Assembly (NCBI GenBank): GCA_016742095.1
Contig: JACVCJ010000030.1
Span: 1-41,857 of the forward strand
DNA length: 41,857 nt
Reading direction: 5' to 3'
From: Bacteroidia bacterium
Lineage (GTDB): Bacteria > Bacteroidota > Bacteroidia > CAIKAF01
In this document: positions 895 through 6,709 of the stretch, one piece after another
Numbering within the stretch: the stretch's first letter is position 1
How the letters are laid out: every line of letters starts with the position of its first letter
Translations under genes and position numbers: made by a program
The notes under the pieces: model-generated
What the model was told of the DNA's origin: nothing
Seen by the model: only the letters and a program-made list of their open reading frames with translations
Databases searched by the model: none

Positions 895-2148
895 ATGCCA
901 AATAAAACAAAGTATATACGTAGTTTCCGGGAATCAGACAACACACAGTTCTCCCTCGTCGGCGGCAAAGGAGCTAACCTGGGCGAACTCTCCCGTCTGT
1001 CCGGCATACGCGTACCCGACGGCTTTTGTATCACGACGGAAGCTTTTCAGCGAATGATCGCAGAAACACCCGCTCTGAATCAACTGCTGCATGAACTTTC
1101 CGGACTGCACAGCCAGGCCCGGGAACAGATCACAAAGCTCAGCACAGAGATCCGCCGCCGCATCGAAGAAACGCCCATCTCCGGAGATATCCGGGAAGAA
1201 ATTGCGCAGGCCCTCTCCCGCTTCAGCGCACAGGAAGCCTTTGCCATCCGTTCCAGCGCCACCGCCGAAGACCTGCCCAACGCATCCTTTGCCGGTCAGC
1301 AGGACAGTTTCCTGAACATCCGCGGAACAGAGGCCATACACATGCATATACGCAAATGCCAGGCCTCCCTGTTCACGGAACGTGCCATCAGTTATCGCAT
1401 ACAGAACAGCTTCGATCATCGCCGGGTACAACTTGCGGTCATCGTACAGCAAATGGTCTTTCCGCAGGCTTCCGGCATACTTTTCACCGCCGATCCCGTT
1501 ACGGGCAACCGCCGGGTCTCTTCCATCGACGCGGGTTTCGGGCTCGGCGAAGCCCTGGTTTCCGGCCGCGTAAACGCCGATACCTACAAAGTGCGCGAAG
1601 GTCGCATCAGCGATAAAAAAATATCCGTTAAAAAGTTCGCCGTCCGGGCCGCTGCACCGGGTGGTACCAAAGACCAGGAACTCCCCGCCGGACAACAGCA
1701 GCAACAAACGCTCACAGACATACAGATCCTGGAACTGGAACGGCTGGGCCGCCGTATTGAAGCCTATTTCGGTCATCCGCAGGACATAGAATGGTGCCTG
1801 GCCGACGGGTTGTTCTACATCGTACAAAGTCGCCCCATCACTACCCTCTTTCCCGTTCTCGAAGCGCCCGACACCGCAAACCGCGTATATGCATCCGTGG
1901 GACACCAGCAAATGATGACCGACGCCATGCTCCCCCTGGGCCTTTCCATGTGGCAGATGCTCGCCGCACGACCCATGCAGGCCGCCGCCGGACGACTTTT
2001 CATCGACGTAAGCGAAATGCTCTCAACCGAAAAAGGCCGGCAAATGCTGCTAAACACCCTCGGCCAGTCCGACCCGCTCACAAAAGATGCACTGCAAATC
2101 GTTATAGATCGTAATTTTATACAAATACAATCCGATGAGACCAACTGA
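895..2148 (+). CDS. rifampin phosphotransferase / PEP-synthase-like protein, N-terminal half (ATP-binding domain)
   Basis: The 417 residues match the ATP-grasp domain of the dikinase family to which rifampin phosphotransferase (RPH) and Bacillus 'Pps' belong. Visible landmarks are VGGKGANLGEL (Lys25), RSSATAEDLP (Arg119), SFAGQQDS, TADPVTG, the QQxQTLTD segment (~268-275), DIEWCL (Glu299) and QSRPIT (Gln311, Arg313). These sit within two residues of the remembered ATP contacts of Listeria RPH. The domain ends near residue 325; the remaining ~90 residues are the beginning of the substrate-binding domain. The frame stops after DETN, where an RPH would continue for ~450 residues. That remainder is at 5372-6709. 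The substrate is unknown: RPH phosphorylates rifamycins with ATP, while others in the family are annotated as PEP synthases. It overlaps no intact downstream start and contains no internal stop. Confidence 0.88.
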   Translation: MPNKTKYIRSFRESDNTQFSLVGGKGANLGELSRLSGIRVPDGFCITTEAFQRMIAETPALNQLLHELSGLHSQAREQITKLSTEIRRRIEETPISGDIREEIAQALSRFSAQEAFAIRSSATAEDLPNASFAGQQDSFLNIRGTEAIHMHIRKCQASLFTERAISYRIQNSFDHRRVQLAVIVQQMVFPQASGILFTADPVTGNRRVSSIDAGFGLGEALVSGRVNADTYKVREGRISDKKISVKKFAVRAAAPGGTKDQELPAGQQQQQTLTDIQILELERLGRRIEAYFGHPQDIEWCLADGLFYIVQSRPITTLFPVLEAPDTANRVYASVGHQQMMTDAMLPLGLSMWQMLAARPMQAAAGRLFIDVSEMLSTEKGRQMLLNTLGQSDPLTKDALQIVIDRNFIQIQSDETN

Positions 2149-2155
2149 TCTTACA

Positions 2156-2246
2156 GGGCGTGTCCTCGCTTACAGCGAGACCGGGCTATCCGCTGCAAGT
2201 CCTCGCTCGTGCCTCGCTCCGGGCTTTCCGCTGCTATCCCTCACGC
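2156..2246. repeat. structured GGGCGTG...CCCTCACGC intergenic repeat at the break in the phosphotransferase
   Basis: This element starts 7 bases after the stop of the N-terminal half. It begins GGGCGTGTC and ends CCCTCACGC. It contains a 6-bp hairpin, CTCGCT-tac-AGCGAG (2165-2179), and two near-identical 15-mers, CGGGCTATCCGCTGC (2182-2196) and CGGGCTTTCCGCTGC (2220-2234), separated by a CCTCGCT-rich stretch. I recall elements of this layout, with variable hairpin arms, as dispersed intergenic repeats in many Bacteroidota genomes. That is from memory and only one full copy is in this window. The 16-mer across its hairpin recurs in the terminator behind groEL. Confidence 0.65.
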
Positions 2247-2302
2247 GGCGCCGGATCAGGGGTATCCATCTGCTTAAAAAATGTACGGCTGTTCTCCGGG
2301 GA

Positions 2303-3184
2303 ATGACAACAATAAAAACAGGTGTGCTTTCTGCTTTTTTTATCCTTACTTCGTGTAATCAAAAAATAACCATGCAGAACCACAACCTAAAACCCGCTGA
2401 AACAGCTTTCCGCAGTGGCTTTTCCGACATAAACGGTCTCCATATGTATTACGAGATCTACGGGGAAGGCAAACCGCTGGTACTCATTCACGGCGGTGGC
2501 TCTACCATAGAGTCCAACTTTGGCAAAGCCATTCCTCTTTTCGCAAAGAACAGGCAGGTAATTGCGGTGGAACTGCAGGCCCACGGACGTACCAGCGACC
2601 GTAATGCCCCGCTCAGCTTCGAACAGGATGCCGACGATGTGGCAACACTTCTCCGGAACCTGGGCATTTCAAAAGCCGATTTCTTCGGCTTCAGCAACGG
2701 CGGCACTACCACCCTGCAGATCGCCATCCGGCACCCGGAAATAGTAAACCGGATCGTGCTCGGCTCAGCCCTGGCCAAAAGGAACGGCGTACCGGACTTC
2801 TTCTGGGGTTTTATGCAGCAGGCCCGGCTTTCCAATATGCCGCAACAGCTGCAAAAGGCCTACCTGGCTGTAAATCCCGACTCGGCCGGCCTCCGGGTCA
2901 TGCACGATAAAGACGCTGCCCGCATGCTGGCCTTTACCGATATCCCGGAGGAAAAACTTCGTGCCATCAGCTGCCCTGCCCTTATCATCATCAGCGATAA
3001 AGACGTGATCACACCGGAGCATGCCCTGGAAATGCACCGGCTTATCTCCGGCTCCGAACTGGCCATTATCCCGGGCGGACACGGCGAATACATCGGAGAA
3101 ATAACCACCGTAACGGAAGATTTCAACGAACGTACGCTCATTGTTCCGCTTATTGAAAAATTCCTCGATAAAAAGCCGGAATAA
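2303..3184 (+). CDS. alpha/beta-hydrolase lipoprotein
   Basis: A 293-residue alpha/beta hydrolase. The start at 2303 gives a lipoprotein signal peptide with lipobox LTSC (Cys18), whereas the frame upstream of it would read through the intergenic repeat. Fold landmarks are the oxyanion-hole HGGG (63-66), the nucleophile elbow GFSNGG with Ser131, the acid Asp in SDKD (~232-234) and the catalytic His260 in GGHGEY. The substrate is not predictable; esterases, lactonases and proline-iminopeptidase-like enzymes share these motifs. It probably sits in the periplasm, anchored to a membrane. It lies inside the interval that separates the two phosphotransferase halves, 17 nt before the methyltransferase, so the two are likely cotranscribed. 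A second start at 2372 would remove the signal peptide. Confidence 0.8.
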   Translation: MTTIKTGVLSAFFILTSCNQKITMQNHNLKPAETAFRSGFSDINGLHMYYEIYGEGKPLVLIHGGGSTIESNFGKAIPLFAKNRQVIAVELQAHGRTSDRNAPLSFEQDADDVATLLRNLGISKADFFGFSNGGTTTLQIAIRHPEIVNRIVLGSALAKRNGVPDFFWGFMQQARLSNMPQQLQKAYLAVNPDSAGLRVMHDKDAARMLAFTDIPEEKLRAISCPALIIISDKDVITPEHALEMHRLISGSELAIIPGGHGEYIGEITTVTEDFNERTLIVPLIEKFLDKKPE

Positions 3185-3201
3185 TCGTAGAAAAAAAGTC
3201 T

Positions 3202-3828
3202 ATGACAAACGAAACCGAAAAGCCGGAATTCTGGGAAAGCAGCTTTCTCGAAAAACAGGAAATGTGGGGCTTTGAACCTGCAAAATCTGCCCTGCTTACC
3301 AAAGACCTTTTCCTGCGCGAAAACGTTAAGCAGGTACTCATTCCCGGTATTGGCTATGGCCGAAACGCACAGATATTCCGGGACAACGGCATGGAGGTGA
3401 CTGGCATCGAAATTTCAGCAACCGCTATTGAAATGGCCCGTAAACACTACGGCCCGGGTATGACCATTTATCACGGCTCCGTATGCGATATGCCCTTCGA
3501 TAACAAGCGGTACGACGGTATTTTCTGCTATGCGCTCATTCACCTGCTGGACGCAGATCAACGGCAGAAACTCATCCGTGACTGTTATGCCCAGCTGGCA
3601 GAGAATGGCTGCATGGTCTTTACCATGATCACGAAAGACGCACAAACCTACGGCAAAGGCACCCTTATCAGCAAAGACCGTTACGAACTGCATCCTGGCG
3701 TACAGATGTATTTTTACGACCGCGAAGCCGTGCAGGCTGAATTCGGCGATTTTGGCCTGTTCGAAATTACGGAAGTGAATGAAAATTTCCCGTTCTTCAT
3801 AGTGAAATGCAGGAAAAAGTATAGTTAA
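3202..3828 (+). CDS. class I SAM-dependent methyltransferase
   Basis: A 208-residue protein with a Rossmann-type methyltransferase core. Motif I is VLIPGIGYGRNA (~45-56), followed by the acidic residue at the end of strand 2 (VTGIEIS), a motif resembling GSVCDMPF (~94-101) and the strand-4 segment YDGIFCYALIHLL. The N-terminal FWESSFLEKQEMWGFEPA resembles the start of the TehB/thiopurine-type small-molecule methyltransferases. It is cytosolic, with no signal peptide or membrane segment. The acceptor substrate cannot be inferred. It follows the hydrolase lipoprotein by 17 nt and lies within the DNA that separates the two halves of the phosphotransferase. Confidence 0.82.
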   Translation: MTNETEKPEFWESSFLEKQEMWGFEPAKSALLTKDLFLRENVKQVLIPGIGYGRNAQIFRDNGMEVTGIEISATAIEMARKHYGPGMTIYHGSVCDMPFDNKRYDGIFCYALIHLLDADQRQKLIRDCYAQLAENGCMVFTMITKDAQTYGKGTLISKDRYELHPGVQMYFYDREAVQAEFGDFGLFEITEVNENFPFFIVKCRKKYS

Positions 3829-4163
3829 CTGGAAAATATCCGGTTTAGCTAAACGTCTCCAAATACCGGCCGTTCATTTTCTATCTTTAACCGTAAAAAC
3901 CATTCCGACCTGAACGATCACAAAATACCCTATCGAAAGAATGGGACTATTGTCCTATTAACAGGAACAGGGTTCTGAGAAAGAAAACCCTATAAAAAAC
4001 AAAACCCGGGAGCTTGAAGTAATTCAGGGGCAACCGGGAACTGTATAGAGCAAATATACTGAAAAAACGAATATGTTGAAAACAACCTGACACTAATTTT
4101 TAAAATGAAGTTTACCGACTTTGAACCCCAAAATACGCTATCTTTAAAACATAATAGTCCAAG
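3829..4163. other. 335-base intergenic stretch with a 12-bp palindrome and a promoter
   Basis: No credible gene is visible. A perfect palindrome GTTTAGCTAAAC lies at 3843-3854, just behind the methyltransferase stop. A weak -7-like TATCTTTA lies at 3882-3889. A 6-bp stem AGGGTT/AACCCT (3969-3974 with 3986-3991) has an 11-base loop. The esterase promoter is at the right end. The stretch is more AT-rich than the flanking genes. Confidence 0.5.
4120..4146 (+). promoter_or_regulatory. candidate esterase promoter
   Basis: TTTG at 4120-4123 and TATCTTTA at 4139-4146 resemble the Bacteroidota -33 and -7 elements, 18 nt before the ATG at 4164. The 15-base spacer is shorter than the usual 19-21 and the last base of the -7 box is A instead of G, so this is a weak match. 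Confidence 0.35.
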
Positions 4164-5297
4164 ATGCACAAGACCACACTTTCCATATTGTTCCTCTTTC
4201 TCCTGAACGCTCTCCGGGCCCAGACCACTGTGAACGGTTCCTTTGTGCACGGCGGCATCACACGTACCTACTCGTTCTATGTGCCGGCGTCTTACGTTCC
4301 GGGCGAGGCAGTGCCCCTGGTGATCGGGCTGCACGGCCTCAGTTCCAGTGGCTCTGATTTTGCGCAGTACCGTAATTTCGGGCCTATTGCCGATACGGCC
4401 AACTTCATTGTGGCCTATCCCGACGGGTCCCTGCTCTTCGGCGTGCGGTACTGGAACTACGGTATCACAGGCTCATCGCCCGACGACGTTGGTTTTATAG
4501 AAGCGCTCATTGATACCATTTCGGCCCAGTATACCATCAACCCCAACCGCGTATACAGCGTGGGCATGTCCAACGGCAGTTTCATGAGCTATTACCTGGC
4601 CTGCCAGAGCGACCGTTTTGCGGCGGTGGGCGGCGTAACCGGCTCTATGTCAACCAGCATGTACAACTCCTGCGTTCCCGCGCATCCCACGCCGGCCATT
4701 CACGTACACGGTACCGAAGACCCTACGAATCCCTACGACGGAACGGCCAGCATGACGGCCATCGAAGACCTTGTACAGTTCTGGGTGAACCAGAATAACT
4801 GCAATACCACGCCCCAGATCACGTCCGTGCCCAATACGAATACCAGCGACGGCGCCACGGCCGAACATTACCTGTACAGCGGAGGCACCGACGGACATAC
4901 CGTAGAGTTTTTCAAGGTGATCGGCGGGGAACATACCTGGCCCGGATGCCCGATGCCCGGCTCTTCGGACGTAACCTGTATGGATTTTGACGCCCGCGTG
5001 GAAATATGGCGTTTTTTCAGCCCGTACGAACGCAGCGGCAGCAGCTCCCTGGAAACCCATAGCAAGGGCGACTGGCTTAAGATGTACCCCAATCCCGCAC
5101 AGGATATCCTGAACCTGGATGCCGGTGAACGACTTATCAACACCGTAGTGATCATGGACATGAAGGGCCGCGTGGTAAAAAAACTGCGCGGACAGGCCAT
5201 TCAGCAGGTAGACATCAGTACGCTGAAGCCGGGACAGTATACAGCCGCCATGAGCGGCAAAGACTTTCACATAGTAAAAAAACTAACAATACTCTAA
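4164..5297 (+). CDS. secreted LpqC/PHB-depolymerase-type esterase with T9SS sorting domain
   Basis: A 377-residue secreted hydrolase. Residues 1-20 form a signal peptide ending AQ. The body resembles the COG3509 LpqC / polyhydroxybutyrate-depolymerase / feruloyl-esterase family: GLHGLSSSG (55-63), VAYPDG, the nucleophile motif GMSNGS with Ser136, Asp186 in HGTEDPTNP, and His257 in GGEHTWPG. From about residue 308 the typical type IX secretion tail begins (MYPNPAQDILNLD ... VVIMDMKGRVVKKL ... LKPGQYTA). The protein is therefore probably exported across the outer membrane and anchored or released at the surface. The exact ester substrate is unknown. It is the last gene before the second half of the split phosphotransferase, 74 nt downstream. 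Confidence 0.87.
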   Translation: MHKTTLSILFLFLLNALRAQTTVNGSFVHGGITRTYSFYVPASYVPGEAVPLVIGLHGLSSSGSDFAQYRNFGPIADTANFIVAYPDGSLLFGVRYWNYGITGSSPDDVGFIEALIDTISAQYTINPNRVYSVGMSNGSFMSYYLACQSDRFAAVGGVTGSMSTSMYNSCVPAHPTPAIHVHGTEDPTNPYDGTASMTAIEDLVQFWVNQNNCNTTPQITSVPNTNTSDGATAEHYLYSGGTDGHTVEFFKVIGGEHTWPGCPMPGSSDVTCMDFDARVEIWRFFSPYERSGSSSLETHSKGDWLKMYPNPAQDILNLDAGERLINTVVIMDMKGRVVKKLRGQAIQQVDISTLKPGQYTAAMSGKDFHIVKKLTIL

Positions 5298-5371
5298 AAG
5301 AACGTACGTTTAATGGAAACGAACGAAATAGCGACACCCGGCACACTTGCTGCCGCATAAACTTTTTACGC

Positions 5372-6709
5372 ATGCAGGAATTTCACAGGCAACCCGAAGC
5401 CGATCCCGCCATTGTCAGCGAACTGATACAGCAGAGCGAAGACGCGCTGGACCTGTTAAAGCAGCAGATCCGGCCTCTCTCCGGAGCCGCATTATTTGCT
5501 TTTATCCGGGAAGATATTGCTAAAATGAAGCAGGGCAATCTCTTTGGTTCGCAGAATATGCAGGCCATCCTGACCGGTATGAACGCCAGGAACCGGGTCA
5601 ACGAAAAAATGTACGAATGGCTGGGCGAAAAGAACGCGGCCGATACCCTCCTGCAGTCCGTACCCGGGAATATTACATCGCAGATGGGCCTGGAACTGCT
5701 CGATCTGGCCGATGCGGTCCGGCCTTATCCCGAAGTGATCACATTCCTTCAGCAGACAAAAAAGGACGATCTCATGGCGGAACTGCCGTCCCTGAATGGC
5801 GGCAGACAGGTCAGGGAAGCCATCTCTGCGTACCTGGAAAAATACGGCATGCGCTGCGCCGGGGAGATCGATATTACCCGCAGCCGCTGGGCCGAAAAGC
5901 CCTCTACGCTTATTCCCCTCATCCTGGGCAATATCAAAAACTTTGCCCCCGGGGAAGCCGCACGAAGGTTTGAACAGGGCCGGCAGGAATCGGAACAAAA
6001 AGAACGGGAACTGCTGAACCGCCTGGAACAGTTGCCCGACGGAAAAGAAAAAGCAGCGGAGACCCAACGGCAGATCCGGTTGCTGCGCAGTTTTGCCGGC
6101 TACCGCGAGTATCCCAAATACAACATCGTAAGCCGATTTTTCGTATACAAAAAAGCCCTGCTGCACGAAGCGGAAAAGCTCTTCCGGGCCGGCGTTATCC
6201 GGGAAAAAGAAGACGTTTTCTACCTCCGCTTTGAAGAGTTCTGCCAGGCCGTAGAGACGCAGACAGTCGATCCGGAACTGATCCAGCGGAGAAAAGAAGA
6301 ACAAAGCATATACGAAAAACGCAGTCCGCCGCGGCTTATCACCTCCGAAGGAGAATGTATCTCCGGCGCCTACCTAAAAGGGGACCTGCCCGCCGGAGCG
6401 CTGGCCGGACTGGCCGTTTCTTCCGGCATTACCGAAGGCCGGGCCCGTGTGTTGCTGCACATGGAAAATGCCAAACTGGAAAAGGGAGATATTCTTGTTA
6501 CCACTTTTACCGATCCCGGCTGGACGCCTCTTTTCGTATCCGTAAAAGGCCTGGTGACCGAAGTAGGCGGACTCATGACCCATGGTGCCGTTATTGCCCG
6601 GGAATACGGACTGGCCGCCGTTGTCGGGGTGGAAAATGCCACCACGCTCATTAAAGACGGGCAGCGTATCCGGGTGAACGGGACGGAGGGTTATGTAGAA
6701 ATACTGTAG
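5372..6709 (+). CDS. rifampin phosphotransferase / PEP-synthase-like protein, C-terminal half (substrate and His domains)
   Basis: These 445 residues correspond to the rest of an RPH/Bacillus Pps-type enzyme. Landmarks include WLGEKNAADTL, NITSQMGLELLDLADAVRPYPEV, KYGMRCAGEIDITRSRW and GYREYPKYNIVSRFFVYK in the substrate-binding domain. The swivelling phosphohistidine domain follows (SFTDPxWTPLF-like, then GGLMTHGAVIAREYG with His404), and the protein ends GTEGYVEIL. Adding the 417 residues of the N-terminal half puts this His at ~821, close to His825 of Listeria RPH. The His domain is C-terminal and no PEP/pyruvate TIM barrel follows, which separates it from true PpsA/PpdK. On its own it has no ATP-binding domain, so it needs the product of 895-2148 or is inactive. 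The ATG at 5372 is assumed; no ribosome-binding site is visible and the frame is open further upstream without family similarity. Confidence 0.88.
   Translation: MQEFHRQPEADPAIVSELIQQSEDALDLLKQQIRPLSGAALFAFIREDIAKMKQGNLFGSQNMQAILTGMNARNRVNEKMYEWLGEKNAADTLLQSVPGNITSQMGLELLDLADAVRPYPEVITFLQQTKKDDLMAELPSLNGGRQVREAISAYLEKYGMRCAGEIDITRSRWAEKPSTLIPLILGNIKNFAPGEAARRFEQGRQESEQKERELLNRLEQLPDGKEKAAETQRQIRLLRSFAGYREYPKYNIVSRFFVYKKALLHEAEKLFRAGVIREKEDVFYLRFEEFCQAVETQTVDPELIQRRKEEQSIYEKRSPPRLITSEGECISGAYLKGDLPAGALAGLAVSSGITEGRARVLLHMENAKLEKGDILVTTFTDPGWTPLFVSVKGLVTEVGGLMTHGAVIAREYGLAAVVGVENATTLIKDGQRIRVNGTEGYVEIL

Follow-up and report, generated by a model that had tools for sequence, protein, structure and literature searches.

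A Flavo-1 element behind a split rifampin-phosphotransferase-like gene fits a mobile structured DNA repeat better than an RNA gene

The window, that is the whole stretch of 41,857 nucleotides analysed here from a Bacteroidia bacterium, carries a rifampin-phosphotransferase-like gene split into two halves, with a structured element directly behind the stop codon of the first half. What is this element, and did it split the gene? Its initial GGGCGTG starts at 2156, 7 nt past the TGA of the N-terminal half (2146–2148), so that the placement given by an earlier, sequence-only reading of this DNA was correct to the base. The hairpin claimed there was found as well, as a perfect 5-bp stem in CTCGC-TTACA-GCGAG. 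The same reading had described two internal 15-mers differing at one base; the pair with its single mismatch exists, but the repeats are 16 nt long (CCGGGCTATCCGCTGC at 2181–2196 and CCGGGCTTTCCGCTGC at 2219–2234). No second exact match of GGGCTWTCCGCTGC was present anywhere in the window. A 6-bp inverted repeat, CTGATC (2145–2150) and GATCAG (2255–2260), lies just outside the element; its left arm overlaps the stop codon of the N-terminal half and the repeat may be due to chance. All features are collected in Table 1.

Table 1. Positions in the window of the split gene, the intervening segment and the parts of the Flavo-1-type element.
Feature	Position	Strand	Basis or remark
N-terminal half (PPDK_N) of split rifampin-phosphotransferase-like gene	895..2148	+	Pfam PF01326; orthologues contiguous
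C-terminal half (PEP-utilisers domain) of split rifampin-phosphotransferase-like gene	5372..6709	+	Pfam PF00391
3.2-kb segment between the halves	2149..5371	+	
Complete Flavo-1-type element, three-way junction, GCGTG...CACGCCC	2156..2246	-	model R2 and Rfam RF01705
Outer stem, 5' arm GCGTG, partner 2158-2162	2242..2246	-	GCGTG/CACGC versus GCGTT/AACGC in other copies
Outer stem, 3' arm CACGC	2158..2162	-	pairing with 5' arm, covariation
5' AGCGGA box of Flavo-1 arm (one of the two noted repeats)	2222..2240	-	alignment and covariation
3' AGCGGA box of Flavo-1 arm (the other noted repeat)	2181..2200	-	alignment and covariation
Terminal loop, length and sequence vary among copies	2201..2218	-	copy comparison
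Side hairpin CTCGC-TTACA-GCGAG	2165..2179	-	helix 5 of the counted structure

The gene is indeed split, as had been proposed: its two halves are adjacent in 80 of 80 named orthologues, to which they are about 54–65% identical. Both halves are nearly complete because the gene is interrupted within a linker, about a dozen residues long and poorly conserved, and, since both are also open, a working two-piece enzyme is conceivable. The segment between them holds the element, an alpha/beta hydrolase lipoprotein, a methyltransferase and a PHB-depolymerase-like esterase with a T9SS tail; for the hydrolase, a search of the order at 1e-15 returned nothing. Elsewhere in the class the rifampin-phosphotransferase-like gene was found in 3 of 394 other genomes, in open frames of 873–911 aa, and within the order none of the 15 other genomes has it. 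At the contig end, positions 1–440 of the window have a GC content of 27%, against about 53% for the remainder, and are likely of different origin.

Judged by its matches to covariance models, the element belongs, as an intact copy, to the known family Flavo-1 (Rfam RF01705), an RNA motif described by Weinberg et al. 2010 (PMC2864571), and we regard this membership as sound. RF01705 matched it on the minus strand over model positions 1–76 of 76 with 27.9 bits (E 5.4e-4), below the 42 bits of the gathering score, which is a threshold for reporting and not an anatomical feature. A paralogue on contig C67 of the same genome, 77% identical to the window copy over 65 nt (blastn, E 2.1e-7), passes this cut-off with 55 bits. 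A covariance model (R2) trained on 21 elements, none of them from the own genome, located the element at 2157–2246 on the minus strand with 59.8 bits (E 8.4e-14). We rely on R2 and not on the matching model that includes the own-genome copies (R1), because the score of the latter is high by construction. The window copy shares with Flavo-1 the paired arm, the two AGCGGA boxes and the two 3x3 internal loops, and in the R1 alignment 19 of its 19 modelled pairs were standard. Beyond the Rfam model it has two further parts, an outer stem and a side hairpin.

This excess is not peculiar to the window. When about 60 copies from relatives were read, the Rfam model proved to span the inner arm only. 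The full element is a three-way junction of a covarying outer stem, the AGCGGA-box arm with its variable loop and a side hairpin, the last being an extra hairpin on the 3' side found in the subfamily to which the window copy belongs. The two strands of the outer stem changed in step: GCGTT/AACGC occurred in 12 copies, GCGTG/CACGC in 11, and GCGGC/GCCGC or GCGCC/GGCGC in others. In the arm, one pair was T-A in 23, G-C in 23 and A-T in 22 of 68 copies. Over 24 full elements, 97.8% of cells held standard pairs, and eight pairs showed double changes, amounting to 45 double-change cells, whereas at most 47.8% of cells were paired when the partner was slid by 1–3 columns. Without guidance, RNAalifold arrived at this three-way junction too. 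By minimum free energy, the fold of the plus strand was not unusual (z 0.77); the structure of the element sits on the minus strand and is visible by covariation, not by energy. A best-helix scan of the flanks barely separated real from re-paired sequences (mean 4.9 versus 4.5), because it does not fix the position of the helix; the position-fixed counts do separate them.

The sequence-only reading had taken the element for a dispersed, structured, intergenic one of Bacteroidota, and copies in the own genome and in relatives, together with the Rfam match, bore this out. A genome-wide search for the pattern of about 90 bp yielded further copies, so the element is not unique to this locus. The own genome holds three good copies, one degenerate copy and one fragment: blastn returned full copies at C62:11496 and C67:70990 (E 3.6e-14 and 2.1e-7) and a one-ended fragment on C49, R1 found the three full copies, and R2 recovered the other own copies including the degenerate one on C47 (29.7 bits). 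RF01705 matched in 22 of 40 relatives at E 0.01 or better, with 0 to 35 matches per genome, and gave none in the control genomes at E 0.01. With the longer model, two genomes from the same family yielded 31 and 19 copies. In three genomes the orientation of copies relative to genes was near random, these counts being approximate since they rest on simple ORF calls. Genome G024 (L038, L192–L210) differed from the others in that 17 of 20 copies had a downstream gene in the same sense. Copies lay closer to stop codons (median 49 nt, n=57) than to start codons (117 nt, n=71; p 1e-5), and 9 of the 57 stop sides were within 8 nt of the stop. A position 7 nt past a stop, as in the window, is therefore unremarkable for Flavo-1.

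The earlier suggestion that such elements might be mobile is consistent with their presence and absence between relatives, which we followed at one site. The purM–Flavo-1–purN arrangement of genome G036 was searched in 59 genomes of its genus and the spacers were read in 30 species: the element stood behind purM in 13 of them, and other sequence in 17, several of these element-less spacers holding hairpin-like sequences instead. On a PurM+PurN tree at least six changes of state were needed, at least three of them forced by strongly supported branches, as between the sister species L312 (without) and L320 (with the element). Shuffled labels required about 10 changes, so inheritance also contributes at this site. 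In copies shared between species the arms were alike, while the terminal loop could be a wholly different sequence. Across these spacers (L297–L326) entire repeats swap for one another between species behind purM. The spacer L298 carries an additional repeat of about 80 bp with ATTTTA on both flanks, resembling a target duplication. In IMG/VR a one-end pattern matched 51 stretches, among which the model found 35 elements. Full copies occurred on viral contigs, some of them directly behind a terminase-like gene (L290) or with a head maturation protease a few kb away (L247, L249); some of the matches may sit in host flanks of proviruses.

Does the family act as RNA or as DNA? Flavo-1 was catalogued as a probable RNA ('RNA? 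y'; PMC2864571) and has been ranked with the most abundant families of sRNAs (PMC9029176). As a putative small RNA gene or cis-acting RNA, the window copy would act in trans or on neighbouring transcripts. The strong structural covariation and the sRNA curation (PMC2864571) speak for this, as do several F. psychrophilum copies in transcribed 5' regions (PMC9723704), and the same-sense bias in G024 would be in keeping with a leader RNA. Against an RNA gene stand copy numbers as high as 35 per genome, with copies facing either way relative to genes, and the frequent lack of the element at an orthologous site, as between purM and purN. In F. psychrophilum, Flavo-1 matches occur indifferently in sense or antisense and many lie outside transcribed regions (PMC9723704). 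Wobble pairs were scarce as well: 3 of 471 cells in 68 Flavo-1 copies were G-U, against 10 of 320 in the TPP riboswitch set (p 0.009), a modest deficit relative to a control of one family from the same class. Low wobble, dispersal and the reported placement (PMC9723704) taken together lean towards selection on DNA. We thus consider an RNA function of the family unlikely, and find the evidence better accommodated by a mobile structured DNA repeat than by the present RNA label.

It is similarly doubtful that Flavo-1 is chiefly a hairpin at 3' ends, a terminator or mRNA stabiliser kept for that role. Copies close behind stop codons would be expected of such a hairpin, and the hairpin-like sequences that replace the element in purM–purN spacers point in the same direction. 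Many copies, however, lie in divergent spacers, and a terminator would need neither conserved AGCGGA boxes nor a variable loop.

The mobile repeat as such has weak points too. Its repeated presence between purM and purN could stem from ancient inheritance followed by losses, or from recombination that involved the purMN region, and neither a mobilising transposase nor a target-site duplication was seen. A REP element moved by a RAYT (Y1/HUH) transposase, the kind of driver the earlier reading had in mind, is very unlikely, although the element is folded, intergenic and dispersed. Y1_Tnp genes are many in the class, but only 2 of 60 such loci had a copy within about 2 kb. In G029 (L069 1501–2146) the sole RF01705 match lies 176 nt from the sole Y1_Tnp gene, and a copy in L061 is less than 1 kb from its RAYT. 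G024 and G030 are rich in copies (29 and 9) with no detectable Y1_Tnp gene, and the one weak Y1_Tnp match of the own genome has no element nearby. As a general mobiliser, RAYT was therefore rejected. A side observation concerns Acido-Lenti-1 (RF01687), another 'sRNA' of Rfam, which gave sub-threshold matches beside Y1_Tnp (RAYT) genes in L061 (1903–1947 and 2046–2090, an inverted pair) and L364 (1822–1865); it may be a RAYT-associated REP.

As to the split gene, the earlier proposal that the 3.2-kb cassette came in by way of the element, as a site of recombination or insertion, is highly improbable: the element does lie about 15 nt or less from the end of homology to intact orthologues and other copies in the genome could recombine, but the right junction has no copy or half-copy of it, the two junctions share no direct or inverted repeat and no target duplication of at least 8 bp, and a location about 10 nt or less behind a stop is common for Flavo-1. 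Around the intact orthologues, 46 stretches with lengths up to 21 kb contained no element. From the one genome read, the element is most likely a passenger that did not split the gene.

We therefore consider it probable that Flavo-1 is a non-autonomous, REP-like dispersed DNA element that spread as folded DNA, present at the split gene as a passenger and not as its cause. Such an element would comprise about 65–180 bp, with one strand adopting a branched fold that takes the form of a three-way junction in the subfamily of the window copy. It would spread as structured, probably single-stranded, DNA by means of some enzyme or by recombination between copies, and behind a gene its role would not exceed that of a 3' hairpin. 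The window copy may have entered at the front of the 3.2-kb segment or, alternatively, have reached the new spacer after the N-terminal half had acquired its stop. A bolder claim, namely that Flavo-1 is not an RNA family at all but mobile, single-strand-folding DNA of Bacteroidota and their phages, with an exchangeable loop and an enzyme other than RAYT, falls a little short of being probable.

How does Flavo-1 compare with known repeats? Like REP elements with their RAYTs, it is short, folded and intergenic, lies near gene ends and reaches high copy numbers in some relatives; dispersed intergenic copies and presence or absence between related genomes are shared with the RAYT-associated REPs in particular. 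Its fold, however, is larger and branched, with a variable loop, and a general linkage to RAYT is lacking. In the latter respect it resembles the CGTC-tagged repeats, as for both no dedicated transposase was found. For CGTC-type REPs of other bacteria the transposase is not known (PMC3733652). With regard to its variable loop, the comparison extends to a different system. Integron attC sites have folded conserved ends around a variable terminal structure, and Flavo-1 likewise combines conserved folded ends with a variable terminal part, which is a resemblance only.

The family itself is known; the interesting part here is the reading of Flavo-1 as a DNA repeat, which the present evidence favors over the RNA gene under which Rfam has filed it. 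Should Flavo-1 prove to be a mobile structured DNA repeat, Rfam would have misfiled a family that ranks with the commonest bacterial sRNAs, and annotation pipelines would be calling many false RNA genes. Bacteroidota would then own an abundant REP-like element whose mobilising enzyme can be searched for, and the outer stem and side hairpin described here provide a better model for that search.
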